Origin: Thiohalocapsa sp.
GTDB lineage: Bacteria > Pseudomonadota > Gammaproteobacteria > Chromatiales > Chromatiaceae
Assembly (NCBI GenBank): GCA_021736785.1
Contig: JAIPFF010000054.1
Location: 1-39,693 of the forward strand
DNA: 39,693 nt
Direction of reading: 5' to 3'
In this document: one piece after another, positions 1 through 17,779 of the stretch
Position numbering within the stretch: position 1 is the stretch's first letter
Layout: the number at the start of each line of letters is the position of its first letter
The notes under the pieces: generated by a model
What the model was told of the DNA's origin: nothing
The model's database searches: none
What the model saw: the letters and a program-made list of their open reading frames with translations, nothing else
Program-made: the position numbers and the translations under genes

Positions 1-1293
1 GAACGCGGCAAGCCACGTACTCCCGGGTTGTTGGGAGTCTGGGCTTTAGCACGGGCGTGATCCTGCGCCGGCACCGAACGGAACGCGGCAAGCCACGTAC
101 TCCCGGCCTCTTGGGAGTCCGGGCTTCAGCACGGACGTGTTCCTGCGACGGCATCGAACGGAACGCGGCAAGCCACGCACTCCCGGCCTCTTGGGAGTCC
201 GGGCTTTAGCACGGGCGTGATCCTGCGCCGGCACCGAACGGAACGCGGCAAGCCACGTACTCCCGGCCTCTTGGGAGTCCGGGCTTCAGCCCGGGCGTAT
301 TCCGGCTGCTGCTGCCACGGCGGAGGTCCGTCCGCGGCGTGCCGCAGACTCCTGGCGTTCTTTTGGGAGTCTGGGCTTCAGCCCGGACGTCTTCCCGCGC
401 CGCCGCCGATGATCCGTCCGCGGCGAGCCGCAGACTCCCGGCGCTCTTGGGAGTCTGGGCTTCAGCCCAGACGTAATCCCGCGCCGCCGCCGATGATCCG
501 TCCGCGGCGAGCCGCAGACTCCCGGCGCTCTTGGGAGTCTGGGCTTCAGCCCGGACGTCTTCCCGCGCCGACACCGATGCTCCGTCCGCGGCGAGCCGCA
601 GACTCCCGGCGCTCTTGGGAGTCTGGGCTTCAGCCCGGACGTCTTCCCGCGCCGACACCGATGATCCGTCCGCGGCGAGCCGCAGACTCCTGGCGTTCTC
701 TTGGGAGTCTGGGCTTCAGCCCGGACGTCTTCCCGCGCCGACACCGATGCTCCGTCCGCGGCGTGCCGCAGACTCCCGGCGTTCTCTTGGGAGTCTGGGC
801 TTCAGCCCGGACGTGTTCCCGCGCCGGCACCGATGACCCGTCCGCAGCGTGCCGCAGACTCCTGGCGTTCTCTTGGGAGTCTGGGCTTCAGCCCGGACGT
901 CTTCCCGCGCCGGCGCCGATGCTCCGTCCGCGGCGAGCCGCAGACTCCCGGCGTTCTCTTGGGAGTCTGGGCTTCAGCCCGGACGTAATCCCGCGCCGGC
1001 ATCGGTGACCCGTCCGCGGCGTGCCGCAGACTCCCGGCGTTCTCTTGGGAGTCTGGGCTTCAGCCCGGACGTGTTCCGGCTGCTGCTGCCACGGCGGAGG
1101 TCCGTCCGCGGCGAGCCGCAGACTCCTGGCGTTCTCTTGGGAGTCTGGGCTTCAGCCCGGACGTGTTCCTTCTTGGGAGTCTGGGCTTCAGCCCGGACGT
1201 CTTCCCGCGCCGGCACCGATGACCCGTCCGCGGCGTGCCGCAGACTCCCGGCGTTCTTAGGGAGTCTGGGCTTCAGCCCGGACGTGTTCCTTC
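1..1293 (+). repeat. REP/BIME array 1 (about 16 units, runs off the left edge)
   Basis: Roughly the first 300 bases are 80-bp units of one subtype (inverted arm with the core GGCAAGCCACG, forward arm GGGCTTCAGCACGG or close variants). From about 300 on, about 85-bp units of the main subtype take over: an inverted arm with stem GTCCGCGG/CCGCAGAC, then CTCC, a spacer of about 10-12 bases, GGAG, and a forward arm GTCTGGGC-TTCA-GCCCGGAC. The two arms with GGAG/CTCC heads facing each other match a BIME made of two REPs. Units at about 1140-1200 are rearranged: two forward arms follow each other with no inverted arm between them. All frames through this array are repeat artefacts, not genes. Confidence 0.9.
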
Positions 1294-1422
1294 GGCGCCG
1301 GTGGCACTCGCCGCGGCGGAGCCACGGCCTCCGGGGTTAACGCGCCCTTGGGTGCGGCCGAACTGCTGCATGGCGGAACTACCATCGCGTTCCTGGCATT
1401 TGAGCATCTTGTCAATCGCCGG

Positions 1423-1440
1423 ATTCCGGAACGCCGGAAT
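1423..1440. promoter_or_regulatory. Inverted repeat upstream of toxin-antitoxin pair 1, candidate operator
   Basis: ATTCCGG, a four-base AACG centre, then CCGGAAT: a perfect 7-bp inverted repeat 47 bases before the antitoxin start. A weak -10-like TAAACT follows at 1446-1451, so the palindrome would overlap the promoter. Antitoxins of this kind usually bind such palindromes to repress their own operon; that this one is the operator is inference. Confidence 0.35.
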
Positions 1441-1487
1441 ATTGCGTAAACTGCAAGGCAACGATGTGATTCTTGGAGGTGCCGAGC

Positions 1488-1739
1488 ATGGAGTTGGTGA
1501 AACTGGGATCAAAGGGACAAGTGACCATTCCGCGGGCGATTCTGCGTGCGGTCGGCCTGACGGGAGATGCGCCTCTGCTGGTGGAGGCGACTCCCGATGG
1601 GGCGATCCTGCTGCGGCCGGCGGCGGTCTACCCCATGGAGATCTACTCCGAGGCGCGTGTCGCGGAATTCGAGCAGGAGAATGCGGTCCCTGCCGATCTT
1701 CAGGCGCGGGTCCGTGCCTCGCTGGAGCGAGGCGATTGA
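1488..1739 (+). CDS. vapB: AbrB/MazE-family antitoxin (pair 1)
   Basis: An 83-residue DNA-binding antitoxin of the SpoVT/AbrB swapped-hairpin type. The N-terminal block VKLGSKGQVTIPRAILRAVG is the family signature, and the acidic C-terminal half would wrap the toxin. The ATG at 1488 is chosen over an in-frame TTG at 1473 because a strong GGAGGT at 1475-1480 sits 7 bases before it. The PIN-domain toxin follows at once on the same strand, so this is the first gene of a two-gene type II toxin-antitoxin operon. It should neutralise the toxin and autorepress the operon; both roles come from the family, not from direct evidence. Confidence 0.88.
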   Translation: MELVKLGSKGQVTIPRAILRAVGLTGDAPLLVEATPDGAILLRPAAVYPMEIYSEARVAEFEQENAVPADLQARVRASLERGD

Positions 1740-1740
1740 T

Positions 1741-2163
1741 TTGCTGCTGTTTCTCGACGCCAACATCCTGTTCAGTGCTGCGTACCGAGACGGGAGTCCG
1801 GCGCTGCTACTTTTCGAGCTGGCCTCGGCGCGCCGATGCCGTCTGGTCACCTCGGGGTTCGCTTGGGACGAGTGCCATCGAAACATCACCCTTAAGTCTC
1901 CGCAACGCGGACCGGCACTCGATGCGCTGAAAGGACAGCTGGAATACGCACCCGTGCCTGATACCGCGGCGATCGTGCGTGCGGCGAACCATGGTCTGCC
2001 GGACAAGGATGCGCCGATCCTCGCGGCAGCCCGGCAGGCGAAGGTCGACATCCTGGTGACCGGAGACCGGACCCATTTCGGACACCTGTACGGCAAAGTC
2101 ACCGACGGCGTGTGCGTGCTGACGCTGAGCGATTCGTTGGCACGACTGCTCGAAGAGAAGTAA
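1741..2163 (+). CDS. vapC: PIN-domain toxin, VapC-like (pair 1)
   Basis: A 140-residue PIN-domain protein, expected to be a Mg-dependent ribonuclease restrained by the AbrB-type antitoxin just upstream. Acidic residues in the usual places are visible: D6 in LFLDANIL, E44 in AWDECH, D88/D90 in LPDKDAPIL and D109 in VTGDRTHF. The start is uncertain. I chose the TTG at 1741, one base after the antitoxin stop, because it places the first catalytic Asp at residue 6 as usual in PIN proteins. A GTG at 1714 would overlap the antitoxin by 26 bases. The TGDxxHF ending is typical of the PIN group often annotated as a putative toxin; the RNA target is unknown. Confidence 0.85.
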   Translation: MLLFLDANILFSAAYRDGSPALLLFELASARRCRLVTSGFAWDECHRNITLKSPQRGPALDALKGQLEYAPVPDTAAIVRAANHGLPDKDAPILAAARQAKVDILVTGDRTHFGHLYGKVTDGVCVLTLSDSLARLLEEK

Positions 2164-2168
2164 TCGAT

Positions 2169-2314
2169 CCTCGTCGAGACACCGATGTCTGACCCTTGCG
2201 TGTTTCTGCTGGGTTCACCTGACTGGCCTTTGCCGCGGACTCAAGCGCGAGAAACGCGCGCGGCCTAACCTTCGACAGCGGTTTCTCGATGACGCGGCTG
2301 AAGCCGCGTACTCC
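2169..2314 (+). pseudogene. Decayed 5' end of a metallophosphoesterase gene (copy 1)
   Basis: This stretch aligns by eye to 5267-5416, including bases before the start codon: CGAGACACCGATGTC and GACCCTTG are shared, as is a later CCTTCG...TTTC/TCGACGACG block. In copy 2 the reading is MSDPWFSWLHLTDLH, a calcineurin-like phosphoesterase N-terminus. Here the frame from the ATG at 2185 is garbled (MSDPCVFLL...) and no metal-binding motif survives. Both copies stop where a REP unit begins. It is a fossil, not a functional gene. Confidence 0.5.
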
Positions 2315-3088
2315 ACCGGTGTGGAGTCCGGGTTCAGTCCGGGCGTCATCCCGCGCCGGCACCGATGATCCGTCCGCGGCGTGCCGCAGACTCCCGGCGC
2401 TCTTAGGGAGTCTGGGCTTCAGCCCGGACGTATTCCGGCTGCTGCTGCCACGGCGGAGGTCCGTCCGCGGCGAGCCGCAGACTCCCGGCGTTCTCTTGGG
2501 AGTCTGGGCTTCAGCCCGGACGTATTCCCGCGCCGACACCGATGATCCGTCCGCGGCGAGCCGCAGACTCCCGGCGCTCTTGGGAGTCTGGGCTTCAGCC
2601 CGGACGTCTTCCCGCGCCGCCGCCGATGACCCGTCCGCGGCGAGCCGCAGACTCCCGGCGTTCTCTCGGGAGTCTGGGCTTCAGCCCGGACGTCTTCCCG
2701 CGCCGACACCGATGATCCGTCCGCGGCGTGCCGCAGACTCCCGGCGTTCTCTTGGGAGTCTGGGCTTCAGCCCGGACGTCTTCCCGCGCCGACACCGATG
2801 ATCCGTCCGCGGCGTGCCGCAGACTCCTGGCGTTCTCTTGGGAGTCTGGGCTTCAGCCCGGACGTCTTCCCGCGCCGACACCGATGATCCGTCCGCGGCG
2901 AGCCGCAGACTCCTGGCGTTCTCTTGGGAGTCTGGGCTTCAGCCCGGACGTGATCCTGCGCCGGCGCCGATGATCCGTCCGCGGCGTGCCGCAGACTCCT
3001 GGCGTTCTCTTGGGAGTCTGGGCTTCAGCCCGGACGTCTTCCCGCGCCGACACCGATGATCCGTCCGCGGCGAGCCGCAGACTCCCGT
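2291..3088 (+). repeat. REP/BIME array 2 (about 9 units)
   Basis: The first unit has a different inverted arm (GCGGCTGAAGCCGC). The rest are main-subtype units at a regular spacing of about 86 bp with GTCCGCGG/CCGCAGAC and GTCTGGGC/GCCCGGAC stems. It ends about 10 bases before the stop codon of the minus-strand Rpn-family gene. A variant unit containing GGCTGCTGCTGCCACGG (about 2429) also occurs twice in array 1. Confidence 0.9.
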
Positions 3089-3097
3089 CTCTGGCGT

Positions 3098-4048
3098 TCA
3101 GGTCCAGAGGTCCTCGATGGTGTCGGCCGTGAGGATGCGCTTTGACCAAGCCAGTAGCGTTTCCGCGTCCGCGGCTTCGATACGCTTGCGGACGGCGTCG
3201 GACGGCGGGCCGAACTTGGCATCGATCAGACTTAGCAGCATGGCGGCTTCGCCTTCCTGGCGTCCTTCCTGGCGTCCTTCCTGCAGTCCTCGTTTGTGTC
3301 CGACGCGCTCGGCGCTGGTGACGTATGGCATCTTGGCTTGTTCCTCGAAGTCGGTCAGTTCTTGGATGAAGGCATCTTCCAGCGCGGGCGGCAGGCGCAG
3401 CATCCAGTCGAGCACGCGAAAGAGTTCCAGGATGTCTTCGCGGCCGTAGCCTCGTTGGTAGAGTAATCGCATCAGGCGCATTTTCCAGCCCTTTCGGGTG
3501 GCGCCGTCTTTGCTGGCCTGCGCCTGCAGGTGCGCCATGATGACGACGCTGAAGGGGTTGGGGCTGGTTTCGAGGTCTGCCCAACGCTTGTGCCAATCCA
3601 GGAGCTTTTCCGCCGGGAAGCGGAACTTGGTCTCGCAGCCCCAGCGGTTTCTGGTGTAGGTGCTCGGGCGATGCGTGGCGGTATCGTCGGCCAGGAGGGC
3701 GAGGCTGACGACGTCGACGTTGTAGCGATCGAAGTGGCGGTAGTTGTAGACGTACATGCGCTCGGCGAACGCGGGCTCGGGGTCGCCTTGTACTTCGACG
3801 TGGACCAAGACCCAGGTTTCCGAACCGTCGGCGGTGTGGACCTTCACCAGTTTGTCGGCGTAGCGCCGGCCGAGCTCGGCGTCGCGGACGATTTGTTGCA
3901 GTTCCTTGTCGAGGAATTCGTGGCCTTGGGTCCAGTCGATTTCGGTGTGGATGTGCGGGAAGAGGAACTGGAGGAATTCCGGGAAGTAGTGTTCCAGGGC
4001 TTCTTTCCAGGGGCTGTCGTGGTCGTCGCGTGGGGTTGGGTCGGGCAT
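3098..4048 (-). CDS. Rpn-family nuclease / putative transposase (PD-(D/E)XK)
   Basis: A 316-residue protein of the recombination-promoting nuclease (Rpn, transposase_31-like) family. The nuclease core shows D65 in RRYADKL and E85-x-Q87 in VHVEVQGDP, the D...ExQ pattern of this PD-(D/E)XK group, followed by the conserved ERMYVYNYRHFDRY segment. The C-terminal 60 residues contain a short EGRQ repeat (GLQEGRQEGRQEGE) and a helical block, AMLLSLIDAKFG...IEAADAETLLAWSKRIL, resembling the DUF4351-type tail often fused to these nucleases. Related Rpn proteins cleave DNA and promote RecA-independent recombination, and some act in phage defence. It is a single gene bounded by repeat arrays, with no partner visible. 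An intact frame suggests it is functional. Confidence 0.88.
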   Translation of the reverse strand: MPDPTPRDDHDSPWKEALEHYFPEFLQFLFPHIHTEIDWTQGHEFLDKELQQIVRDAELGRRYADKLVKVHTADGSETWVLVHVEVQGDPEPAFAERMYVYNYRHFDRYNVDVVSLALLADDTATHRPSTYTRNRWGCETKFRFPAEKLLDWHKRWADLETSPNPFSVVIMAHLQAQASKDGATRKGWKMRLMRLLYQRGYGREDILELFRVLDWMLRLPPALEDAFIQELTDFEEQAKMPYVTSAERVGHKRGLQEGRQEGRQEGEAAMLLSLIDAKFGPPSDAVRKRIEAADAETLLAWSKRILTADTIEDLWT

Positions 4049-4138
4049 GGGGCGGGAGCAGGCGTATCGGCACTATTTAGGCGATAATACACCAAATGTG
4101 TCTTTTTGCTCCGACGACGGAAGGCTCAGTGTTCTGGG

Positions 4139-4386
4139 CTTGGAGTCCGGGCTTCAGCCCGGGCGTGATCCTGCGCCGGCATCGCACGGAACGCGGCTAA
4201 AGCCACGTACTCCGAAGTTGTTGGGAGTCCGGGCTTCAGCCCGGGCGTGATCCTGCACCGGCATCGCACGGAACGCGGCTAAAGCCACGTACTCCGAAGT
4301 TGTTGGGAGTCCGGGCTTCAGCACGGACGTAATCCCACGCCGGCGCCGACGGTGGCACGGACGCGGCTGAATCCACGTACTCCGGC
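4139..4386 (+). repeat. REP array 3 (three units, GGCTAAAGCC subtype)
   Basis: Three units of about 85 bp in which the inverted arm reads ACGCGGCTAAAGCCACGT and the forward arm GTCCGGGC-TTCA-GCCCGGGC or the GCACGGAC variant. The CTCC/GGAG heads are as in the main subtype. The array lies between the divergent 5' end of the Rpn gene and the 3' end of the broken coiled-coil gene. Confidence 0.85.
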
Positions 4387-4412
4387 AGAGGGTGATTAAG
4401 GTCGTCTGTCGC

Positions 4413-4860
4413 TCAGGGCAGCAGCTTGATGGACGCGACGACGAGGGCACCGACGGTGGGTGGCGAAGGACCAGATCATGAAGCGGTCGATACGGCGCGT
4501 GAGGGCTTCGAATCTGGCTTCAAAGCGTTTGTCCATTTGCTCGAAGCGCTTGTCCATTTGCTCGAAGCGTTTGTCGACCTGCTCGAAGCGTTTGTCCATT
4601 TGCTCGAAGCGCTTGTCGACCTGCTCGAAGCGCTTGTCTATTTGCTCAAAGCGCTTGTCGACCTGCTCGAAACGCTTTTCCATCTGCTCCAAGATGGTCT
4701 TGATCAGCTCGCGTTGGTGCTTCAGCTCTTCTTCGACGCGGACCATGCGCTCGCGCAGCTCGATCTCTTAGACAGCCTGCGGCTTACCGAGGGATTGCTC
4801 TACGAGCCACTCGGCAAGGTGGTCTTTGATGAACTGGATGTCTTCTTGGGCCAGCGCCAT
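4413..4860 (-). pseudogene. Coiled-coil membrane-tail protein gene, broken by a stop and a frameshift
   Basis: Read from the ATG at 4858-4860: MALAQEDIQFIKDHLAEWLV..SLGKPQAV, then TAA (4768-4770). The same frame continues without a gap as EIELRERMVRVEEELKHQREL and about eight heptads of the type DKRFEQV/M, which form a coiled coil. The protein would end in a hydrophobic tail, but a 5-bp deletion near 4455 shifts the frame. Undoing it, with 5017-5103 as the reference copy, gives FATTLTVGALVVASIKLLP and a TGA at 4413-4415. From memory, related small proteins read through the first lesion with a tyrosine (AVYEIELRERM), so the TAA looks like a nonsense change. Re-initiation at the ATG at 4746 could still give a truncated 116-residue product. 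Function of the family is unknown to me. Confidence 0.7.
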
Positions 4861-4979
4861 GGTGCGGTTTCGTTTTGGAGTGTCGCGAACGAGTATATCA
4901 GGATGCGGCGCAGGGAACGTGTTGTCGTACACGTATGGGTGCTGTTCAAAACGCCGTCGGATCGGCTGCATCGGAAACG

Positions 4980-5004
4980 AAAAATGGGGTCAGACCCTGT
5001 TTTT
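4980..5004. repeat. 25-base palindrome with A and T tracts, copy 1
   Basis: AAAAATGGGGT-CAG-ACCCTGTTTTT folds as a hairpin with an A/T base, a GGGGT/ACCCT stem and a 3-base loop. It resembles a bidirectional intrinsic terminator. The same element returns at 5107-5131 in the same orientation, and the two bracket a fragment copied from the neighbouring coiled-coil gene. Confidence 0.7.
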
Positions 5005-5016
5005 CCGCTGTTTTTC

Positions 5017-5103: not shown

Positions 5104-5106
5104 GGA

Positions 5107-5131
5107 AAAAATCGGGTCAGACCCCGTTTTT
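5107..5131. repeat. 25-base palindrome with A and T tracts, copy 2
   Basis: AAAAATCGGGT-CAG-ACCCCGTTTTT: same loop, same A and T tracts and nearly the same stem as 4980-5004, 127 bases away in direct orientation. It could act as a terminator, or be the end of a small mobile unit. Confidence 0.7.
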
Positions 5132-5266
5132 CCGGTGGCATGAGACGTTGCGGTCTATCGCGGCGGGATCAAGTCGATGCCGGGTTCCCGGAGTCCCACG
5201 CCGCAAACACCGATCAGGCCGAGTCCTGCGTGGCTTGGCGTGCTACCAGACGCGCGCGTCTCGACA

Positions 5267-5416: not shown

Positions 5417-5491
5417 CGCGTCCTTCCGGGCTTTTTGGGAGTCTGGGCTTCAGCCCGGACGTGATCCTGCGCCGCCGCCGATGATCCGTCT
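5402..5491 (+). repeat. Single REP/BIME unit
   Basis: One unit with inverted arm GACGCGGCTGAGCCGCGTC, a spacer, and forward arm GTCTGGGC-TTCA-GCCCGGAC. It abuts the phosphoesterase remnant on its left and lies 36 bases from the stop codon of the minus-strand PIN toxin. Confidence 0.85.
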
Positions 5492-5527
5492 GCCCCGATC
5501 CGCCACGTCGGCCCTGGACGCGATGCG

Positions 5528-5950
5528 TTACTCCATCGCTTCGCCCCACGGGTTGACGACGCGCAGGCCGGGCAGGTTGAAGTCGGCCAGGTTGCGTGTC
5601 ACCAGAGTTAATCCGTGCACCAGGGCGGTTGCGGCGAGCAGGCTGTCGATCGCGGGCAAGGGCCGGCCGGCCTCGACGCAGAGCTTGCCCCACCGATCCG
5701 CAACGGCCGCGTCGACATTTAGAATGCGACCGGCGAAGTAAGCCGGAACCTCGATATCCAGCCACGTGGAGAAGCGATCTTTGCGCTCGCCGTTCTGCAT
5801 GGCGTGGATGCCTTTTCGCAACTCGCCAAGGGTCAGGACCGACAGGTGCAGGCCACTGGATGGCTGGTTCGCGAACCAGCGGGCGACGCCGAGATGCGGC
5901 TTGCGCTTCTTGAGCTCGGACAGGGCGTTGGTATCGATCAACCAAGTCAC
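5528..5950 (-). CDS. vapC: PIN-domain toxin, VapC/FitB-like (pair 2)
   Basis: A 140-residue PIN-domain ribonuclease toxin. The catalytic acidic residues appear as D6 in WLIDTNALSE, E43 in LGELRKGI, D102 in LPAIDSLLAATA and D123 after the VTRNLADF motif; IDTNxLSE and the VTRN/F ending are typical of the FitB/VapC branch. The gene overlaps the upstream Phd-type antitoxin by 4 bases (ATGA at 5947-5950), so the two are translationally coupled. Toxins of this branch cleave RNA, often tRNA, when the antitoxin is degraded; the target here is not known. The frame is intact and of normal length. Confidence 0.92.
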   Translation of the reverse strand: MTWLIDTNALSELKKRKPHLGVARWFANQPSSGLHLSVLTLGELRKGIHAMQNGERKDRFSTWLDIEVPAYFAGRILNVDAAVADRWGKLCVEAGRPLPAIDSLLAATALVHGLTLVTRNLADFNLPGLRVVNPWGEAME

Positions 5951-6198: not shown

Positions 6199-6267
6199 GT
6201 CGGCCTTCGAGTAAAGCTAGTCAGTCTAGTTTGTTGATACGCAAAGTATAGACGAACGCCTCCCCTC

Positions 6268-6541
6268 GAGCGCGGCGGAAGCCACCGGCTCCCGGGTTTC
6301 CCGGGAGTCTGGGCTTCAGCCCGGACGTGATCCCCCGCCGCCGCCGATGACCCGTCCGCGGCAAGCCGCAGACTCCTGGCGCTCTTGGGAGTCTGGGCTT
6401 CAGCCCGGACGCGATCCCGCTCCGGCACCGATGATCCGTCCGCGGCGTGCCGCAGACTCCCGGCGCTCTTGGGAGTCTGGGCTACAGCCCGGACGTCTTC
6501 CCCCGCCGGCCTCGATCGGAACGCGGCAAGCCGCGCACGCC
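6268..6541 (+). repeat. REP/BIME array 4 (three units)
   Basis: Three units between the divergently transcribed toxin-antitoxin pair 2 and MNT/HEPN pair 1. The first inverted arm is degenerate (GCGGCGGAAGCCACC); the others are the main subtype. In the last unit the loop is TACA instead of TTCA. Confidence 0.85.
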
Positions 6542-7503: not shown

Positions 7504-7570
7504 TTTGTCGATGTGCCAAGTGTGGACGGCCGCCTGCGCCGACCTTGTAGGAGCGCAGCCCCGCGCATTC

Positions 7571-8350
7571 TCGGGAGTCTGGGCTTCAGCCCGGACGTCA
7601 TCCCGTCCCGCCACCGATGATCCGTCCGCGGCGTGCCGCAGACTCCTGGCGCTTTTGGGAGTCTGGGCTTCAGCCCGGACGTGATCCGGCGCCGGCATCG
7701 ATGACCCGTCCGCGGCGTGCCGCAGACTCCTGGCGCTTTTGGGAGTCTGGGCTTCAGCCCGGACGTGATCCGGCGCCGGCATCGATGATCCGTCCGCGGC
7801 GTGCCGCAGACTCCTGGCGCTTTTGGGAGTCTGGGCTTCAGCCCGGACGTGATCCCGCTCCGGCACCGATGACCCGTCCGCGGCGAGCCGCAGACTCCTG
7901 GCGCTTTTGGGAGTCTGGGCTTCAGCCCGGACGTGATCCCGCTCCGGCACCGATGACCCGTCCGCGGCGAGCCGCAGACTCCTGGCGTTCTCTTGGGAGT
8001 CTGGGCTTCAGCCCGGACGTCTTCCCGCGCCGCCGCCGATGACCCGTCCGCGGCGTGCCGCAGACTCCTGGCGCTCTCTTGGGAGTCTGGGCTTCAGCCC
8101 GGACGTGATCCCGCTCCGGCACCGATGATCCGTCCGCGGCGAGCCGCAGACTCCTGGCGTTCTTGGGAGTCTGGGCTTCAGCCCGGACGTGATCCCGCTC
8201 CGGCACCGATGATCCGTCCGCGGCTTGCCGCAGACTCCCGGCGTTTTCTTGGGAGTCTGGGCTTCAGCCCGGACGTGATCCCGCTCCGACACCGATGATC
8301 CGTCCGCGGCAAGCCACAGACTCCCGGCGTTCTTGGGAGTCTGGGCTTCG
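7571..8350 (+). repeat. REP/BIME array 5 (about 10 units)
   Basis: Main-subtype units, several with an exact 84-bp period (7571-8000), which keeps reading frames open on both strands. Spacers differ between units (GGCGCCGGCATCG, GCTCCGGCACCG, GCGCCGCCGCCG), so copies are not identical. The last forward arm is interrupted after GTCTGGGCTTC by unrelated sequence. Confidence 0.9.
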
Positions 8351-8498: not shown

Positions 8499-8531
8499 AA
8501 GGAACGAATCGGATTGTAAGGAGTTCGCCGG

Positions 8532-9178: not shown

Positions 9179-9369
9179 GGTGATCCGCGGTGCTCGGTCG
9201 CGGCGCCGAGCGTCCCCCACCCGTGCGCGCAGAAGCCCTCCCTCGCTCGCGGCGCCCTCAACCCGAGCCCTTGGGGCGCGGGGTAGACGCGGTGGTGACC
9301 ATCATGGCAGCCACGCGCGGCAACAAGCCGGCGCGCCACGGGCTTCTTCCCGCGCCGCCACCGATGACC
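9179..9369. other. Gene-free spacer after pair 3
   Basis: About 190 bases of very GC-rich sequence with no gene, promoter or clear terminator that I can support. It leads into the next repeat array. Confidence 0.5.
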
Positions 9370-9563
9370 CGCCCGCGGCAAACCGCAGACTCCCGGCGTT
9401 CCTAGGGAGTCTGGGCTTCAGCCCGGACGTCTTCCCACGCCGCCACCGATGATCCGCCCGCGGCGTGCCGCAGACTCCCGGCGTTCTCAGGGAGTCTGGG
9501 CTTCAGCCCGGACGTCTTCCCACGCCGACACCGCTGACCCGCCCGCGGCATGCCGCAGACTCC
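9370..9563 (+). repeat. REP/BIME array 6 (two full units plus an extra inverted arm)
   Basis: Inverted arms with GCCCGCGGCAAACCGCAGAC, GCCCGCGGCGTGCCGCAGAC and GCCCGCGGCATGCCGCAGAC, and two forward arms of the main subtype. It ends about 20 bases from the stop codon of the convergent Uma2-type gene. Confidence 0.85.
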
Positions 9564-9583
9564 CCGTCTGGCGCCACTCGCCG

Positions 9584-10141
9584 CTACGCCCAGAGATCGG
9601 CCAGCGGGAAGGGGACGGCTTCGAAAGGGGCGAGGGCAACGCTGTCCGAATCCTGGAGCGTCGCCTCCAGCGTCCAACGATTGTCTCGCAGCGTGAAGCT
9701 CTCGAGGGTTCTGAGCACCGGATCGACGAGCCAAAGCCATTGCACCTGATGGATCGCGTAGATCGGCATTTTGACGACGCGGTCGGTCTTGGCGGTGCCC
9801 GGGGAGAGGATCTCGCAGACCCAGTCGGGGGCGCGGTCGATCCAGGCGGTATCGGGTAGCGTCGGCAGGCGCTCGCGGCGCCATCCGGCGATGTCGGGCA
9901 CGATGACGTGGTCGCCGAGATGGATTTCCGGCTCGTCGAGTATCCACCAGCCTCCGGGGCCGCTGCGCCCCGTTCCGAAAGGGTCGGACAGCTTGCCGCC
10001 GAGCGCGGACGCCGCCAGAGCGTGCCGCGGCGCCGGACGCGGTTGTGTGCGCAGCTCGCCGTTGAGGATCTCGGCGATCAGGTGCTCGGGGACCTGCAGG
10101 AGATCCTCGTAGGTGGCCGGTTTCGGGACGGCGTTGCCCAT
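9584..10141 (-). CDS. Uma2-family (DUF820) putative endonuclease
   Basis: A 185-residue protein of the Uma2/DUF820 family, predicted restriction-like PD-(D/E)XK nucleases abundant in cyanobacteria and some purple sulfur bacteria. Visible markers are the N-terminal TYEDLLQVPEHLIAEILNGEL, HVIVPDIAGWRRERLP, and PDWVCEILSPGTAKTDRVVK with the following MPIYA, which carry the acidic and lysine residues of the site. Length is normal for the family. It is a lone gene between two repeat arrays. The cellular role of the family is not established. Confidence 0.92.
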   Translation of the reverse strand: MGNAVPKPATYEDLLQVPEHLIAEILNGELRTQPRPAPRHALAASALGGKLSDPFGTGRSGPGGWWILDEPEIHLGDHVIVPDIAGWRRERLPTLPDTAWIDRAPDWVCEILSPGTAKTDRVVKMPIYAIHQVQWLWLVDPVLRTLESFTLRDNRWTLEATLQDSDSVALAPFEAVPFPLADLWA

Positions 10142-10203
10142 GGTGGAAGTGCTTCTGCGGCTGGGTTCGCGTGCAGTATAGCCGACGGATTATCGGCGCG
10201 TTT

Positions 10204-10806
10204 TCTCGGGAGTCTGGGCTTCAGCCCGGACGTGATCCCGCGCCGGCACCGATCCGTCCGCGGCAAGCCGCAGACTCCTGGCGCTCTTGGGAGTCTGGGC
10301 TTCAGCCCGGACGTCTTCCGGCGCCGGCACCGATCCGTCCGCGGCATGCCGCAGACTCCTGGCGCTATTGGGAGTCTGGGCTTCAGCCCGGACGTGATCT
10401 TACGACGGCACCGATCCGTCCGCGGCAAGCCGCAGACTCCCGGCGTTCTTGGGAGTCTGGGCTTCAGCCCGGACGTGATCCCGCGCCGGCATCGATTCGT
10501 CCGCGGCGAGCCGCAGACTCCTGGCGTTCTTGGGAGTCTGGGCTTCAGCCCGGACGTCTTCCGGCGCCGGCACCGATCCGTCCGCGGCAAGCCGCAGACT
10601 CCTGGCGTTCTTGGGAGTCTGGGCTTCAGCCCGGACGTGATCCCGCGCCGGCATCGATTCGTCCGCGGCAAGCCGCAGACTCCTGGCGTTCTTGGGAGTC
10701 TGGGCTTCAGCCCGGACGTGATCTTACGACGGCACCGATCCGTCCGCGGCAAGCCGCAGACTCCTGGCGCTCTTGGGAGTCTGGGCTTCAGCCCGGACGT
10801 CTTCCC
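10204..10806 (+). repeat. REP/BIME array 7 (about 8 units, 81-bp period)
   Basis: Main-subtype units with an exact 81-bp period. Inverted arms vary in the loop (GCAAG, GCATG, GCGAG) while the stems hold. Because 81 is 27 codons, several frames stay open for hundreds of codons and give spurious proteins with a 27-residue period (GSLGFSPDV...RGKPQTPGVL). It lies between the 5' end of the Uma2 gene and the 3' end of toxin-antitoxin pair 4. Confidence 0.92.
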
Positions 10807-10848
10807 GCGGCGTCGTCTGCATCTTGCGCCGCGAGCCGTCCGGTGCGA

Positions 10849-11247
10849 TCACGCCCAGTTCTCGATGCGCAAGCCCGGTACGCGTTCGAATTCACCCACG
10901 TTGTTGGTGACCAGGGTGCAGCCGAGGTAGCGGGCGTGTGCGGCGATCAGGAGGTCGTTGGCGCCGATAGGGGTTCCCCGGGCTTCCAGCGCGCTTCGAA
11001 TCTCGGCGTAGGCTTCGGACGCTTCTTGCGGCCAACCGAGCACCATGCAGTAGTGCAGGAAATCCGTCAGGGCCGCGGCGTTTTCTTGTTGGCGCCGACT
11101 CTTGCGGACGCCGAACTGCAGCTCGGCGAGGACGATGGCGGAGATGCCGACGTCGCCGATCGCGATCTCGCGGAGTCTGGCCTGCACTCGCGGCGGGTGG
11201 TGCTTCATGGTGTAGATGCAGGTATTGGTGTCGAGCATCCAGCGCAT
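10849..11247 (-). CDS. vapC: PIN-domain toxin VapC (pair 4)
   Basis: A 132-residue VapC-type PIN ribonuclease. Catalytic acids: D6 in MRWMLDTNTCIY, E42 in VLAELQFGV, D98 in IGANDLLIAAHA, and the closing TLVTNNVGEF motif. MLDTNTCIY with NDLLIAAHA is the pattern of VapC toxins that cut initiator tRNA in enteric bacteria; the same target is plausible but unproven here. The frame is open far upstream, but the ATG at 11245-11247 overlaps the antitoxin stop by one base (TGATG), as usual for coupled pairs. Confidence 0.93.
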   Translation of the reverse strand: MRWMLDTNTCIYTMKHHPPRVQARLREIAIGDVGISAIVLAELQFGVRKSRRQQENAAALTDFLHYCMVLGWPQEASEAYAEIRSALEARGTPIGANDLLIAAHARYLGCTLVTNNVGEFERVPGLRIENWA

Positions 11248-11519
11248 CAGAAGTCTTCTCTGCCCTGCGGCGGCCGGTCGTCGACGGCGTCGGGGAAGTC
11301 GTCGGTCAGGCGCTTGGCATGTGCGAAGTAGTCCTGCCACGAGCGGGGCTTGGGGGTGAGGATGATACTGTCGCCTTCGCGGCGGATCAGGACCTCGTCG
11401 GCGTCGATTTCGAGATCGCGGGGCAGCCGCACGGCCTGGTTGCTGCCATTGCGGAACAGGCGGGCGGTGCGGGGTTGTGCGGTGTCCGAAGGTGCTTCGG
11501 GCGGTGGGCGCTGGGTCAT
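11247..11519 (-). CDS. vapB: VapB/VagC-type antitoxin (pair 4)
   Basis: A 90-residue AbrB-fold antitoxin with the VapB/VagC signature TARLFRNGSNQAVRLPRDL followed by ADEVLIRREGDSIILTPKP; the C-terminal WQDYFAHAKRLTDDFP should embrace the toxin. The first 15 or so residues are a proline-rich extension. An alternative start at 11549 would add ten residues; neither has a good ribosome-binding site. It is coupled to the PIN toxin by TGATG. Of the four PIN pairs this is the most classic VapBC. Confidence 0.9.
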   Translation of the reverse strand: MTQRPPPEAPSDTAQPRTARLFRNGSNQAVRLPRDLEIDADEVLIRREGDSIILTPKPRSWQDYFAHAKRLTDDFPDAVDDRPPQGREDF

Positions 11520-11636
11520 GCGTGGCTCTGAAGCATATGGCGTTGGCATAGGTTAGTCTAGGCGCTGTCCGCCGTTGCGGCAAGACGTGAGCGCGGAGGG
11601 CGTGAAGGTGGCTTGAGCTTGACGTTGCCCGATGGC

Positions 11637-12237
11637 CTTCGACGCTGCTGAAGCCGCTTCGTCCGAGTTTCGGACTTTGGGCTTCAGCCTGGGCGCGGTG
11701 CCGCGGCGGCAGCGGCAGCCCTTCCGCGGCAAGCCGCAGACTCCTGGCGTTCTTCGGGAGTCTGGGCTTCAGCCCGGACGTGATCTTACGGCGGCATCGA
11801 TCCGTCCGCGGCGTGCCGCAGACTCCCGGCGTTCTTCGGGAGTCTGGGCTTCAGCCCGGACGTGATCTTACGGCGGCATCGATCCGTCCGCGGCGTGCCG
11901 CAGACTCCCGGCGTTCTTGGGAGTCTGGGCTTCAGCCCGGACGTCTTCCCGCGCCGGCGTTGAACCGTCCGCGGCGTGCCGCAGACTCCTGGCGTTCTTC
12001 GGGAGTCTGGGCTTCAGCCCGGACGTCTTCCCGCGCCGGCGTTGAACCGTCCGCGGCGTGCCGCAGACTCCTGGCGTTCTTCGGGAGTCTGGGCTTCAGC
12101 CCGGACGTGATCTTACGGCGGCATCGATCCGTCCGCGGCGTGCCGCAGACTCCTGGCGTTCTAGGGAGTCTGGGCTTCAGCCCGGACGTGATCCCGCGCC
12201 GGCATTGCACGCCACGCGGCAAGCTACGCGCTCCCGC
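11637..12237 (+). repeat. REP/BIME array 8 (about 7 units)
   Basis: The first unit is degenerate (GACTTTGGGCTTCAGCCTGGGCG). The following units are main subtype, several with an exact duplicate neighbour, e.g. the two units ending GCCGGCGTTGAACCGTCC near 11950 and 12035. The last unit changes to the GGCAAGCTACG subtype. Confidence 0.9.
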
Positions 12238-12379
12238 GTCGGTTCCACCAGCGCGGTCAACTCTGCGTCGGCATGCCTGTCCGGACGATTTTGCGACCGT
12301 CCATCGGTGCCGATGGGTGTCGCCTGCTAGCATAGTTCGATAGCTTACCGGATTGACCTCGATAGACTGGTCGACCGGC

Positions 12380-12547
12380 AGGTCGGCAGGTCGGCAGGTC
12401 GGTAGGTCTGTAGGTCTGTAGGTCTGTAGGTCTGTAGGTCTGTAGGTCTGTAGGTCTGTAGGTCTGTAGGTCTGTAGGTCTGTAGGTCGGCTGGATCGGC
12501 AGGTCGGCAGATCGGCAGATCGGCAGATCGGCAGATCGGCAGGATCG
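12380..12547. repeat. 8-bp tandem repeat upstream of MNT/HEPN pair 2
   Basis: Units drift along the block: AGGTCGGC twice, AGGTCGGT once, ten perfect copies of AGGTCTGT (12404-12483), then AGGTCGGC and several AGATCGGC. The 8-base unit is not a multiple of three, which argues against coding. It forms the first part of a simple-sequence tract lying just before the MNT start. Confidence 0.93.
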
Positions 12548-12555
12548 GCGAGTGC

Positions 12556-12645
12556 GGTCGGTTCGGTCGGTTCGGTCGGTTCGGTCGGTTCGGTCGGTTC
12601 GGTCGGTTCGGTCGGTTCGGTCGGTTCAGTCGGTTCAGTCGGTTC
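12556..12645. repeat. 9-bp tandem repeat upstream of MNT/HEPN pair 2
   Basis: Eight perfect copies of GGTCGGTTC (12556-12627), then two of AGTCGGTTC. The tract ends 10 bases before the AGGAGG ribosome-binding site at 12656-12661 of the MNT gene. Copy-number changes here would alter the leader or promoter spacing of the operon. Confidence 0.95.
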
Positions 12646-12668
12646 GGATGTTTGCAGGAGGGTCGCTC

Positions 12669-12968: not shown

Positions 12969-13492
12969 CGGCCTCGGACAGAGAGCGGCTGGTTTGGCTA
13001 CTGGAGGTTGCCCAGCGCGAAGGTCGGCATTTGCTGGCGACGACCGAGCGCTTGTTGCAGGAGGACATCGACGCGGATTGGGTCCGCCGTCTGGATTCCG
13101 AACCGATTCTTGCCGAACGGGTGGACGCGTTCGTGGCTCGTTTCGGTCGCTTTCAGGATCATCTCGGCAACAAGCTCGTTCCGTCGCTGTTCGGCGTCAT
13201 GCTGGAGCCGGCAGCTGCCATGCTGGACAATTTGAACCGGTTGGAAAAGCTGCGTCTGCTTTCTTCGGTGATGGACTGGGTGGAGGCGCGGAATCTGCGC
13301 AACCGCTTGGTGCACGAGTACATGCAGGACCCGTCGGAATTCGCGCAAGGCTTGGTGCGCGCATTGCACTTGGTGGGGCTACTGTTGCGAACCTACAACG
13401 CCGTCAATCGCTATATCCGCGATCGATTCGGCGGCGGGAAGGACGTCTGGCCGTCGCTTCTGCCGGACGAGCCGAGACCGACGACGCCGTAG
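12965..13492 (+). CDS. HEPN-domain ribonuclease toxin, MNT/HEPN pair 2
   Basis: A 175-residue helical HEPN protein with RNRLVHEY at about residues 119-126, again the complete R-x4-H-x-Y motif. It is about 20 residues longer than the HEPN of pair 1, mainly at the C-terminus. The ATGA overlap at 12965-12968 couples it to the MNT gene. Expected role: RNA cleavage that arrests growth unless the partner has modified the motif tyrosine. The frame is intact. Confidence 0.87.
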   Translation: MTASDRERLVWLLEVAQREGRHLLATTERLLQEDIDADWVRRLDSEPILAERVDAFVARFGRFQDHLGNKLVPSLFGVMLEPAAAMLDNLNRLEKLRLLSSVMDWVEARNLRNRLVHEYMQDPSEFAQGLVRALHLVGLLLRTYNAVNRYIRDRFGGGKDVWPSLLPDEPRPTTP

Positions 13493-13605
13493 CTCGACGC
13501 CAACGGACGTGCTGCGCTTCCGTCGCCGTCCGGTTCCACCAAGAAAGGCGCATGGAGGATAGGGGCCACAGGCTTCGGCCCTTGCCCGGGCCGGCGCCGG
13601 CCTCG

Positions 13606-14156
13606 ATCCGTCCGCGGCGAGCCGTAGACTCCCGGCGCTCTTTAGGAGTCCGGGCTTCAGCATGGACGTGATCCTGCGCCGGCATCGAACGGAACGCGGC
13701 TAAAGCCACGTACTCCCGGCGCGTGGAGTCCAAGGCTTTAGCCTTGGCGCAGGCCAGCACCGGCATCGAACGGAACGCGGCAAGCCGCGCACTCCCGGAT
13801 TCTTGGGAGTCCGGGCTTCAGCACGGACGTGATCCTGTGCCGGCATCGAACGGAACGCGGCTAAAGCCACGTACTCCCGGCGCGTGGAGTCCAAGGCTTT
13901 AGCCTTGGCGCAGGCCAGCGCCGGCATCGAACGGAACGCGGCAAGCCGCGCACTCCCGGATTCTTGGGAGTCCGGGCTTCAGCACGGACGTGATCCTGTG
14001 CCGGCATCGAACGGAACGCGGCTAAAGCCACGTACTCCAGGCGCGTGGAGTCCAAGGCTTTAGCCTTGGCGCAGGCCAGCACCGGCATCGAACGGAACGC
14101 GGCTAAAGCCGCGTACTCCCGGGTTGTCGGGAGTCTGGGCTTCAGCCCGGACGTAG
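13606..14156 (+). repeat. REP array 9 with a third arm type (CCAAGGC)
   Basis: Here a composite unit of about 165 bp is repeated. It holds two inverted arms (GCGGCTAAAGCCACG and GCGGCAAGCCGCGC), one forward arm GTCCGGGCTTCAGCACGGAC, and a third forward arm, GGAGTCCAAGGCTTTAGCCTTGG, whose stem is CCAAGGC/GCCTTGG. This third arm is seen only in this array, three times. The GGAG head is kept. Confidence 0.88.
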
Positions 14157-14204
14157 CACTTCCGCTATGGTGAGTCGGACGGCAGGACACATGGAGACTG
14201 GCGG

Positions 14205-14972
14205 ATGTTGTCGAAGCTTGTGACGCAGTTGTTGATGCCGCTAGGCGTCGGCGGGCTTGGGGTGCTGGTCGGCGTGATCGCGCTGGTACTCGGGCACCGA
14301 GTGTCGGGCAGTGCGCTGGCGCTGGCCGGGTTGGCTTGGATTTGGCTCTGGGCAACGCCGGCGGCGTCTGACTGGCTGCGCGGGTCGCTGGAGCATCGCT
14401 ATCCGCCGACGGCGGTGGAAGCGCTGCCGAAGGCGCCGGCGATGGTATTACTGGGCGGCGGTATGGATCCGGTGACGGCGCCGCGGCTGCATCCGGATTT
14501 GGGCAGCGCCGCGGACCGGGTATGGCATGCGGCGCGGGTGTTTCATGCCGGCAAGGCGCCGTTGGTGGTGGTCAGCGGCGGGGCGCTGCCTTGGCATGCG
14601 GGCGACGGCGTGGAGGCGGACGCGATGCTGACGTTCCTCGGCGATTTGGATGTCCCTGCGGAGCGGGTCGTGCTGGAGGGCCGCAGCGGCACCACGCGCG
14701 GTAATGCGGTGGAGACGGCCGCGCTGCTGGCGGAGCGGGGCATCGATCGGGTGCTGCTGGTGACCTCCGCGTTGCATATGCGGCGGGCGGAGGCGACATT
14801 CCGAGCCGTCGGGTTGGACGTGGTGCCGGTTGCTACGGACTATGAAATTGTGGACTCGGCCGAGACGCCGCTGGAGTATTTGCCGGATGCGGACGCGTTA
14901 TACGGCAGTTCGCGGGCGATTAAGGAGTATTTAGGGCTGGCTTATTATCGGCTCCGCGGCTGGGCGCGTTAG
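14205..14972 (+). CDS. YdcF/ElyC-family (DUF218) membrane protein
   Basis: A 255-residue protein. The N-terminus has two hydrophobic segments (about residues 8-30 and 35-52), followed by a DUF218 domain: MVLLGGGMDP near 81, a DRVWHAARVFHAGKAPLVVVSGG block, RVVLEGRSGTTRGNAVE, and VLLVTSALHMRRAEATFRAVG. This is the arrangement of ElyC, an inner-membrane protein needed for proper peptidoglycan precursor or lipid carrier use in E. coli; the exact reaction of the family is unclear. It starts at the ATG at 14205, with GGAG about 9 bases before. It stands alone between two repeat arrays. Confidence 0.88.
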   Translation: MLSKLVTQLLMPLGVGGLGVLVGVIALVLGHRVSGSALALAGLAWIWLWATPAASDWLRGSLEHRYPPTAVEALPKAPAMVLLGGGMDPVTAPRLHPDLGSAADRVWHAARVFHAGKAPLVVVSGGALPWHAGDGVEADAMLTFLGDLDVPAERVVLEGRSGTTRGNAVETAALLAERGIDRVLLVTSALHMRRAEATFRAVGLDVVPVATDYEIVDSAETPLEYLPDADALYGSSRAIKEYLGLAYYRLRGWAR

Positions 14973-14978
14973 GAAAAG

Positions 14979-15683
14979 GAGTCTGGGCTTCAGCCCGGAC
15001 GTAATCCTGCGCCGGCACCGATGCTCCGTCCGCGGCGAGCCGCAGACTCCCGGCGCTCTTGGGGAGTCTGGGCTTCAGCCCGGACGTAATCCTGCGCCGG
15101 CGACCGATGATCCGTCTCCCGCCCCGCCACCGATGATCCGTCCGCGGCGTGCCGCAGACTCCTGGCGTTCTTAGGGAGTCTGGGCTTCAGCCCGGACGTA
15201 ATCCCGCCCCGGCACCGATGACCCGTCCGCGGCGTGCCGCAGACTCCCGGCTCTCTTAGGGAGTCTGGGCTTCAGCCCGGACGTGATCCCGCGCCGGCGA
15301 CCGATGATCCGTCTCCCGCCCCGCCACCGATGCTCCGTCCGCGGCGAGCCGCAGACTCCTGGCGTTCTTGGGGAGTCTGGGCTTCAGCCCGGACGTCACC
15401 CCGCCCCGGCACCGATGACCCGTCCGCGGCGTGCCGCAGACTCCTGGCGTTCTTGGGAGTCTGGGCTTCAGCCCGGACGTCTTCCCACGTCGCCACCGAT
15501 GCTCCGTCCGCGGCGTGCCGCAGACTCCCGGCGTTCTTGGGAGTCTGGGCTTCAGCCCGGACGTAATCCTGCGCCGGCACCGATGCCCCGTCCGCGGCGT
15601 GCCGCAGACTCCCGGCGTTCTTAGGGAGTCTGGGCTTCAGCCCGGACGTAATGCCACACCGGCACCGCACGGAACCCGCTCGA
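14979..15683 (+). repeat. REP/BIME array 10 (about 8 units)
   Basis: Main-subtype units between YdcF and the metallo-hydrolase. Two units carry the same odd insert (GACCGATGATCCGTCTCCCG) about 198 bases apart (15099 and 15297), which shows that a block of more than one unit was duplicated. The last units lead into sequence that is no longer repetitive at about 15684. Confidence 0.9.
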
Positions 15684-15708
15684 AATTTCACACTCCACAA
15701 GGAGAGAT

Positions 15709-15780
15709 GCACTCAGCGCTTCCCGCACGGTCTCGCTGGTCAGTGCACTCAGCCCTTCCCGCACGGTCTCGCTTGTCAGT
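15709..15780. repeat. 36-bp direct repeat, two copies
   Basis: GCACTCAGCGCTTCCCGCAC... at 15709-15744 and again at 15745-15780 with two changes. It is unrelated to the REP units and lies in the leader, 57 bases before the metallo-hydrolase start. Confidence 0.9.
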
Positions 15781-15836
15781 GATTGCGGTTTCCGTGTGCG
15801 AGCGGCACAATCGGTCCACGCATCGACGGGGCTAGG

Positions 15837-17240
15837 ATGATGACGGATTTTCGTATCACGCATCATGGGGCGGTGGAGGGCGTTACGGGGTCGTGTCACG
15901 AGCTGACGTTGGCCGACGGGCGCTCTGTCTTGGTCGATTGCGGTCTGTTTCAGGGCGCGGAGGCGTCCGGCGACGGCTCCGGCGTCGGGCGGATGGAGGT
16001 CGGCTTCCCGTTGGAGCAGGTGGCGGCGCTGATCGTCACCCATGTGCATATCGACCATGTCGGTCGCATTCCCTATTTGATGGCCGCCGGCTTCACCGGC
16101 CCGATCTACTGCAGCGAGGCCTCGGCGGAGCTGCTGCCGTTGGTGCTCGAGGATGCGCTGAAGATCGGCTTCACGCGCGATGAGCTACTGATCGAGCGCT
16201 TCCTGCGGGTGATCGGCGAGCGCCTGCGGCCGTTGGCGTACGGGGCTTGGCAGACGGTGCTCGAGGGCGAGAAAGGCCTGCGGATTCGCCTCAAGCCGGC
16301 GGGGCATATCCTGGGCTCGGCCTATGTGGAATGCGACGTGCGTGAGGGCCGGCAGCGCTCCCGTGTGGTGTTCTCGGGTGATCTGGGGGCGCCCTATACG
16401 CCGCTCCTGCCGGCGCCGCGCCCGCCCTACGGCGCCGACGTGGTGGTGTTGGAGAGCACTTACGGCGACCGCAACCACGAGGACCGCCGCCAGCGAGCCG
16501 AACGCCTCCAGGCCATCGTCGAGCACGCGGCCCGCGACGGCGGAACCATTCTGATCCCCGCTTTCAGCATCGGCCGCACGCAGGAGCTGCTCTACGAGCT
16601 GGAGCAGATCATCCACCGAAACCGACAGTGTCCGGTGTCCCCGGGCCTCAATTGGGACGACATCGAGATCATCTTGGATTCGCCCTTGGCGGCGGACTTC
16701 ACGGCGGGCTACTCGCGCCTGCGCGAGCACTGGGATCGGGAGGCCAGGCGGCGCGTCGAGGCGGATCGCCATCCGCTGGACTTCGATCAGGTGCTGACCA
16801 TCGATGATCACGCCACCCATGAGCAAACGGTGCACTATCTCGCGCGGCGCATTCGCCCGGCGATCGTGATCGCCGCCAGCGGGATGTGCGCCGGCGGGCG
16901 CATCGTCAATTATCTCAAGGCCATGCTCGGCGATCCGCGGCACGACATTCTGTTCGTCGGCTATCAGGCGGCCGGGACGCCGGGGCGGGATATCCAGCAT
17001 TACGGGCCGCGCGGCGGTTATGTGATGCTCGATGGCCAACGCTACGACATCCGCGCCGCGGTGCATACGTTGAGCGGCTACTCTGCGCATGCGGACCGGG
17101 ACGGGCTGATCCGTTTCGTGACGGGCATGCGCTGCAAGCCCCGCAAGGTGATTCTGGTGCATGGCGACCGCGAGGCCAAGGTGAGCTTGCGCGAGGCGCT
17201 GCGGGAGAGGCTGCCGGAGGCGGAAGTGGTTGTGGGGTAA
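15837..17240 (+). CDS. Beta-CASP metallo-beta-lactamase-fold RNase-like protein
   Basis: A 467-residue protein of the CPSF73/Ysh1-like group. The zinc motif THVHIDHVGR gives H69-x-H71-x-D73-H74. Further conserved pieces are KPAGHILGSAYVE, VVFSGDLG, LESTYGDR, ILIPAFSIGRTQELLYEL (start of the beta-CASP part), IIAASGMCAGGRIVNYL-type sequence, SGYSAHAD and VILVHGD. The order (lactamase part, beta-CASP insert, RNA-specificity tail) and the length match bacterial members, which act on RNA. The frame is open upstream to 15783, but the tandem ATGs at 15837 and 15840 give the usual N-terminus. No operon partner is visible. Confidence 0.93.
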   Translation: MMTDFRITHHGAVEGVTGSCHELTLADGRSVLVDCGLFQGAEASGDGSGVGRMEVGFPLEQVAALIVTHVHIDHVGRIPYLMAAGFTGPIYCSEASAELLPLVLEDALKIGFTRDELLIERFLRVIGERLRPLAYGAWQTVLEGEKGLRIRLKPAGHILGSAYVECDVREGRQRSRVVFSGDLGAPYTPLLPAPRPPYGADVVVLESTYGDRNHEDRRQRAERLQAIVEHAARDGGTILIPAFSIGRTQELLYELEQIIHRNRQCPVSPGLNWDDIEIILDSPLAADFTAGYSRLREHWDREARRRVEADRHPLDFDQVLTIDDHATHEQTVHYLARRIRPAIVIAASGMCAGGRIVNYLKAMLGDPRHDILFVGYQAAGTPGRDIQHYGPRGGYVMLDGQRYDIRAAVHTLSGYSAHADRDGLIRFVTGMRCKPRKVILVHGDREAKVSLREALRERLPEAEVVVG

Positions 17241-17245
17241 GGGAT

Positions 17246-17779
17246 GGGATTACGTCCGGGCTGAAGCCCAGACTCCCAAGAGCGCCAGGAGTCTGCGGCA
17301 CGCCGCGGACGGATCGGTTGCGGTGCGGGGTTACGTCCGGGCTGAAGCCCAGACTCCCTAAGAGCGCCAGGAGTCTGCGGCACGCCGCGGACGGATCATC
17401 GGTGCCGGGGTGGGAAGACGTTCGGGCTGAAGCCCAGACTCCCGACAACCCGGGAGTACGTGGCTTGCCGCGTTCCGTTCGATGCCGTTGCAGGAAGACG
17501 TCCGTGCTGAAGCCCGGACTCCTAAGAGAGCCGGGAGTCTGCGGCACGCCGCGGACGGATCATCGGTGCCGGTGCGGGAAGACGTCCGGGCTGAAGCCCA
17601 GACTCCCTAAGAGGGCCGGGAGTCTGCGGCACGCCGCGGACGGGGCATCGGTGCCGGTGCGGGAAGACGTCCGGGCTGAAGCCCAGACTCCCAAGAGCGC
17701 CAGGAGTCTGCGGCACGCCGCGGACGGGGCATCGGTTGCGGTGCGGGAAGACGTCCGGGCTGAAGCCCGGACTCCCGGA
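17246..17779 (-). repeat. REP/BIME array 11, inverted relative to all others (about 7 units)
   Basis: The same units, but the GTCCGGGC-TGAA-GCCCAGAC arm now comes first, so the whole array is flipped. One unit in the middle (about 17450-17520) is of the GGCTTGCCGCG subtype. The array lies between two convergent genes, the metallo-hydrolase and the FecR-like protein, where it could end transcription from both sides. Confidence 0.92.

Follow-up and report, generated by a model that had tools for sequence, protein, structure and literature searches.

Repetitive extragenic palindromes (REPs) with an unusual tetranucleotide head, GGAG, crowd the left 17.8 kb of a contig of Thiohalocapsa sp. (assembly GCA_021736785.1, contig JAIPFF010000054.1; C11 in our numbering), whose whole length of 39,693 bp was analyzed and is referred to here as the window. 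They stand in inverted, tandemly repeated pairs that resemble bacterial interspersed mosaic elements (BIMEs), and another contig of the same genome carries a gene, L004, for a REP-associated tyrosine transposase (RAYT) lying among REPs of the same layout. The favored reading, to which we assign a probability of roughly 0.7, is that the arrays are REP/BIME-like clusters and non-autonomous partners of this RAYT, together forming a variant REP/RAYT system with GGAG heads. The system is filed as a REP/RAYT variant outside the GTAG and CGTC classes, because the head that defines each of these classes was looked for and the counts, given below, do not support either.

Pattern counting places 132 REPs in 13 clusters across the window, 74 of a type called B and 58 of a type called A, and the same patterns find none in the reversed window sequence that served as a control. 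REP B reads GGAG-TCTGGGC-TTCA-GCCCGGA-CG, and 60 of its 74 copies are identical (GGAGTCTGGGCTTCAGCCCGGACG); REP A, on the opposite strand, reads GGAG-TCTGCGGC..GCCGCGGACGG. The heads face each other, as an earlier note made from the letters of this contig had described: 52 of the 55 head-to-head neighbors lie 10–13 bp apart, 50 of the 55 tail-to-tail neighbors have 21 or 24 bp between them and the others 30 or 51 bp, and nine neighbors run in the same direction, mostly where the pattern overlooked an A copy. Inverted REP pairs, two alternating spacers, and tandem repetition together give the clusters a BIME-like organization. A generic detector of a head plus a hairpin returned 143 GGAG in the window (3 in the reversed window) versus 0 GTAG and 3 GTGG, which sets these REPs apart from those with a GT[AG]G head. 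Twelve of the 13 clusters, comprising 11 arrays and a lone REP, lie in positions 1–17779, where they cover 5,828 bp and hold 130 REPs; this is the number of arrays and lone units previously counted by eye, and the estimate of about 80 units made at the same time is close to the 74 B copies. In this left part, Tandem Repeats Finder (TRF) resolves arrays of 80–86 bp units. Both ends of the contig fall inside REP arrays, and an Rfam scan of the window gave no family at gathering score.

The repeat is also dispersed. In the genome, a 5.2-Mb draft in 96 contigs whose contamination is estimated at 3.05%, GGAGTCYGGGCTTNAGCMCGGRCG occurs in 198 copies when one mismatch is allowed (control 0), of which at least 73 are in the window, though the window makes up 0.76% of the genome. 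Copies are present on at least 24 of the 96 contigs, and at least 11 contigs have one inside their first 60 bases, which fits assembly breaks at arrays. None of 55 further genomes searched, among them nine congeners, contained the B repeat of the window; this search was subtype-specific and says nothing on other GGAG REPs in those genomes. Within the window, 55 of 57 complete units are distinct. The nearest unit lies in the same array in 59% of cases versus 12% expected, the mean distance rises from 0.115 for adjacent units to 0.249 at lag 8 (6 pairs), and none of 2000 label permutations matched the observed difference. Units are thus most like their array neighbors, indicating that arrays grew locally. 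Diversity is 0.056 in REP columns versus 0.258 in linkers, and GGAG is invariant, an invariance to be read with the fact that units were chosen by a B pattern starting with GGAG with up to three mismatches. As for candidate empty sites, the best congener matches are 72–74% identical and cover the neighboring gene only.

Five genes of this genome match Y1_Tnp, and one of them, L004, is a RAYT encoded at C74:7315-7893, on a contig other than the window's. The earlier note had proposed a genome-wide search for a RAYT gene flanked by GGAG hairpins, along with a count of the unit's copies and places; the former leads to L004, which has on each flank GGAG REP pairs, head toward head, laid out as in the window, and the latter to the numbers above. 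Neither of the observations it had named as unfavorable was made, in that a RAYT gene is present and, in a comparison above the level of strains, the B repeat is confined to one of 56 genomes. C74 (11.4 kb) also holds the main B repeat of the window, in exact copies, at 64–151 and 3970–4268, as well as a CACGGAC variant near its right end. The protein passes NCBIfam REP_Tyr_transpos (102.2, cut-off 80), and a Pfam Y1_Tnp match of 27.7 bits (cut-off 23) together with HYH and an aligned catalytic Tyr identifies it as a Y1/HUH enzyme; the hairpins bordering its gene recur in the genome, a defining trait of RAYTs. Its sole PDB match by sequence is 4er8, the E. coli TnpA_REP (E 4.4e-15). No such REPs were seen by eye in the fetched flanks of the other Y1_Tnp genes (L001, L002, L003, and L005), and L001–L003 fall under the REP_Tyr_transpos cut-off. 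A first hairpin scanner was too strict and overlooked L004's own REPs; its zeros were discarded. An intact L004 homologue at 50% identity or more is found in 2 of 56 genomes, its own and G011 (51%), the others being weaker, and genome G024 has a broken one (L038, 49%, internal stop) near the GGAG hairpins GGAGTCCGAGGC and GGAGTCCGTGGC. L004 has matches in 19 plasmid records, all of them below 60% identity; of two that were inspected, one from Kovacikia has WQRRFWEYWIR and no REP array was seen there, and one from Chloroflexota has WQRRFWEHLIR with GTAG repeats. A search of phages gave no match to L065, a relative of L004. We regard the RAYT of L004 as the likely mobilizer of the window's hairpins.

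The association of GGAG with this kind of enzyme extends well beyond Thiohalocapsa. A scan with an alignment of L004 and L037 yielded 41 relatives from purple sulfur bacteria, Methylococcaceae, Beggiatoa and Thiomargarita types, Desulfonema, and metagenome-assembled genomes labeled Deltaproteobacteria, Chloroflexi, KSB1, and Anammoxibacter. When every hairpin-foot tetramer within 600 bp of the gene is tallied, GGAG comes out on top near the genes of this branch with both detectors used. The looser detector finds it at 41 of 42 branch loci (249 hairpins), against control values of 7/39 for distal stretches, 9/42 for gene bodies, and 9/30 for other RAYT/Y1 genes; the strict one finds it at 33 of 43 branch loci (172 hairpins), compared with 3/39, 4/43, and 2/30, respectively, L037 and L094 being one locus that the looser tally counts once and the strict tally twice. 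The sole miss of the looser detector, L082, has by eye GGAGTGCAAAAATAGAG with a long loop. By the looser detector, GTAG is found at 6 of 42 branch loci and GTGG at 8; the other RAYT/Y1 genes have GTAG at 10 of 30, and the contrast in GTAG does not reach significance alone (p 0.08). CGTC is seen around 10 of the 42 branch genes, in 7 of the 39 distal stretches, and around 14 of the 30 other RAYT/Y1 genes, a distribution that does not place the branch in the CGTC class. The pooled hairpin surroundings (43/44 loci) read GGAGTnC with no conserved base upstream, and GT[AG]G stands shortly before GGAG at 7 of 43 loci only. Some branch REPs have GGAGC instead of GGAGT (L073, also L107). L107 and L108, further homologues from a hidden Markov model search, have GGAG REPs by eye.

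Heads of a different kind are described in the literature: GT(A/G)G in PMC2817692, GTAG or GTGG for 66 families in PMC6006769, and GTAG or CGTC in PMC3733652. A GGAG head class was not found in the literature searched, where most subscription papers fell outside coverage. The earlier note had taken GTAG or GGAG heads as known; its recognition of a BIME-like RAYT/REP system is supported, given the RAYT amid REPs of the same layout, but the papers cited here do not bear out GGAG as a known head, which is the unusual part. Stenotrophomonas BIMEs share with the window inverted REPs, two kinds of intervening segments, tandem modules, and one RAYT adjoining a BIME, and differ in their GT(A/G)G heads (PMC2817692). 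Pseudomonas REPs starting with GTRGGAGC contain GGAG as well (PMC2817692, PMC3686654), but there it follows GT and overlaps a GTRG head; here a GT[AG]G close upstream is confined to the 7 loci just mentioned. Surveys that require GTAG or GTGG, such as PMC6006769, would overlook the GGAG REPs despite hundreds of copies in two named genomes: Desulfonema magnum has 573 copies of its own GGAG REP (one mismatch allowed; control 0), and Ca. Thiomargarita nelsonii has 472 exact copies of its own (control 0). The genomes of L066 and L065 gave 0 copies with a pattern that does not match the hairpins seen there, a result of little weight. A published miniature inverted-repeat transposable element of Ca. 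Thiomargarita nelsonii, the 'hupL MITE' (PMC4853749), was considered as a GGAG REP and rejected, as no GGAGTNC is present in three hydrogenase loci.

The enzymes of the branch are distinctive in sequence. Most carry HYH and PVW[WY]-NYWDYCPR, with HDH (L099), HCH (L088), CPW (L079), CPS (L096), and broken copies as exceptions, whereas E. coli-like RAYTs in the same alignment mostly carry HLH and WQxR[FY]WEHxIR; the branch loop W-x-NYWDY[CS]PR replaces the latter. The residues discussed as guide contacts in E. coli are W94, Q95, E100, H101, and R104 (PMC6006769, PMC8266576). The E. coli TnpA_REP with its REPs and BIMEs (RAYT group 2, subclass 2.2; PDB 4ER8) resembles the present system in being a Y1 HUH enzyme of like fold and similar sequence, with a tetranucleotide at the hairpin foot and inverted pairs in clusters, but it has GTAG, HLH/HMH, and WQPRFWEHAIR in place of GGAG, HYH, and W-x-NYWDYCPR, and it lies on a separate branch. 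With W[WYRC]-NYWDY and HYH, the branch falls outside group 2 and subclass 2.2, which are marked by a WQ or WE loop motif and an HLH-type motif. Compared by description only, TnpA_Y1 subclass 2.8 (NHYH, W[YH], YIHYNP; PMC6006769) likewise has HYH, and in both the residue that follows W is not Q (W[YH] in 2.8; here mostly W, also Y, R, and C, with WY in L004 and WW in most relatives). This subclass is reported as eight proteins from cyanobacteria, which have YIHYNP and whose REP heads are GT[AG]G, in contrast to GGAG and a NYLLxNP-type motif (YLLxNP-like) here. In a 64-row tree, a split supported at 100/99 separates the 38 branch rows, which come from four named phyla, from the other rows, and they adjoin the E. 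coli-type group; the tree omits L088, L094, L095, L102, L103, L104, and L105, adds L107, L108, and L110, and groups rows by having been found as relatives of L004 and not by the head seen, so that it shows one branch and is no independent test of the head. A structure model of L065 (pLDDT, a per-residue confidence score, 81) has 4er8 as its top PDB match (E 4.1e-10, TM score 0.65/0.69). At 1e-30, the branch profile matches 2 of 369 genomes drawn evenly from the class, this genome included, and the branch enzyme is therefore rare in the class.

By the proposed mechanism, the RAYT would bind the hairpin in single-stranded form along with the tetranucleotide GGAG, which would act as the guide, cut beside the hairpin, and join it elsewhere, thereby seeding REP pairs; the seeded units would then multiply locally into tandem arrays via slippage or unequal exchange, and the change of loop presumably accompanied that of the head. 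A broader proposal, whose chances we put a little short of even, is that a multi-phylum RAYT branch switched its guide from GT[AG]G to GGAG along with the W-x-NYWDYCPR loop, keeps A3G4 and should thus still cut CT, and maintains, in sulfur and methane bacteria, REP populations of hundreds that are undescribed as a class. In the model of PMC8266576, guide A3 and G4 select CT, and T2 with G4 selects CA. Given that GGAG keeps A3G4 and lacks T2, cutting at CT without the CA option is predicted, or at CC if G2 participates. According to the same source, the E. coli enzyme tolerates no change in GTAG, and neither in E. coli nor in S. maltophilia did attempts to shift the cut site via the head succeed. 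A natural branch in which both the head and the guide-contact loop differ would provide ready-made enzyme/substrate pairs for asking whether the tetranucleotide sets the cut site.

It should be noted that several points weigh against the favored reading. The REPs adjoining L004 belong to a minority subtype with 26 copies (one mismatch allowed) versus 198 of the window subtype, and a second RAYT could have been lost or be missing from the draft. Only 29 of 42 branch loci had REPs detected both to the left and to the right of the gene within 800 bp, the orientation of REPs around the genes is mixed, with none fixed, and the pooled loci show no conserved cleavage dinucleotide (CT, CC, or CA) at a fixed distance. 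Both hairpin tallies are uncorrected for kinship among loci. The scan selected loci partly by PVW[YW]NYW, and the invariance seen there is partly built in; L004, L037, L107, and L108, found by other means, keep NYWDY[CS]PR, and the residues at position 95 among them are Y, W, R, and C. Moreover, group 3 RAYTs accept some head changes (PMC8266576), and a changed head therefore need not mean a changed guide.

This last point bears on the strongest alternative, an unlikely one in our estimate, in which the system is RAYT/REP but the enzyme recognizes the hairpin, with GGAG kept by descent from one ancestral element or as a stem extension. The loci are indeed related by descent in the tree, GGAG is part of a perfect palindrome at L071, L074, and L077, and binding by the S. 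maltophilia RAYT tolerates head changes (PMC8266576). Yet GGAGTnC persists with no conserved upstream base while stems, loops, and spacers vary widely among loci, GTAG, the head of the neighboring branch, is restricted to 6 of 42 loci, and GGAG in the window is invariant while linkers vary, though here the unit-picking pattern itself begins with GGAG. Far less probable is that the hairpins are kept for some other role, such as transcription termination, mRNA ends, or protein binding, and spread by tandem duplication only, the RAYT being coincidental: REPs elsewhere do have such roles (PMC6006769) and the arrays do grow locally, but copies on at least 24 contigs imply dispersal too, a RAYT sits between repeats, the same RAYT–REP association recurs at unrelated loci, and the window repeat is absent from congeners. 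That the density of the contig stems from faulty assembly or binning is hardly credible, for all the fragmentation and estimated contamination of the draft and the copies at contig starts, as 55 of 57 units are distinct and the same subtype occurs on many contigs, including that of the RAYT.

The arrays supporting the GGAG-headed REP/RAYT reading were delimited by TRF and pattern counting, with unit comparison in addition for arrays 2, 5, 7, 8, and 10, and are on the + strand unless stated. Array 1 (1–1293; 80–92 bp units) starts at the contig end and holds 28 REPs at 34–1284; TRF reports it as 13.7 copies of 86 bp at 4–1169 and a further stretch at 1043–1293. It is followed by array 2 (2323–3087; 84–92 bp units, 8.9 copies by TRF), array 3 (4142–4383; 82-bp units), a lone B REP (5438–5461, pattern count), the short array 4 (6303–6510), array 5 (7563–8349; 84–86 bp units, with 9.2 TRF copies of 84 bp at 7573–8349), the short array 6 (9345–9564), array 7 (10203–10809; 81-bp units), array 8 (11723–12224; 81–82 bp units), array 9 (13645–14154), array 10 (14978–15667; 84–85 and 112 bp units), and array 11 (17252–17776), which is on the − strand, reversed with respect to the others. 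Array 12 (39529–39693), at the right contig end, lies beyond the range covered by the earlier note. Arrays 3, 9, and 12 consist of a second unit subtype, GAACGCGG..GCCACGTACTCC, as do the first ~300 bp of array 1, the rest of which is of the main subtype. According to the TRF consensus, this second subtype alternates in array 9 with a further hairpin, GGAGTCCAAGGCTTTAGCCTTGG. This hairpin is also found on contigs C24 and C30 and beside a Thiodictyon relative, and a variant with one loop base changed lies beside a Lamprocystis relative (loci L102, L065).

Two genes between arrays are neighbors that lie outside the REP/RAYT system. A PIN-domain gene (1567–2163, + strand; Pfam PIN_3 38 bits, cut-off 27) lies between arrays 1 and 2, and a Uma2-family gene (9584–10141, − strand; Pfam Uma2 83.8 bits) between arrays 6 and 7. 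With those at 5528–5950 and 10849–11583, the inter-array genes encode three PIN-domain proteins and one Uma2 protein, a set resembling a toxin–antitoxin-rich island. Short inverted motifs like AAAAATGGGGTCAGACCCTGTTTTTCC recur at 4981–5008 and ~5105–5133, and the similar GGGGACAGACCACGTTTT flanks L002 and L005, two further Y1_Tnp genes in this genome; perhaps these motifs form a second repeat family linked to those genes. TRF also reports tandem repeats of the 8-base CGGCAGGT at 12376–12549 and the 9-base CGGTCGGTT at 12555–12647, and 21-base repeats, AAGCGCTTGTCCATCTGCTCG, lie at 4523–4693 within an open reading frame with weak coiled-coil matches.

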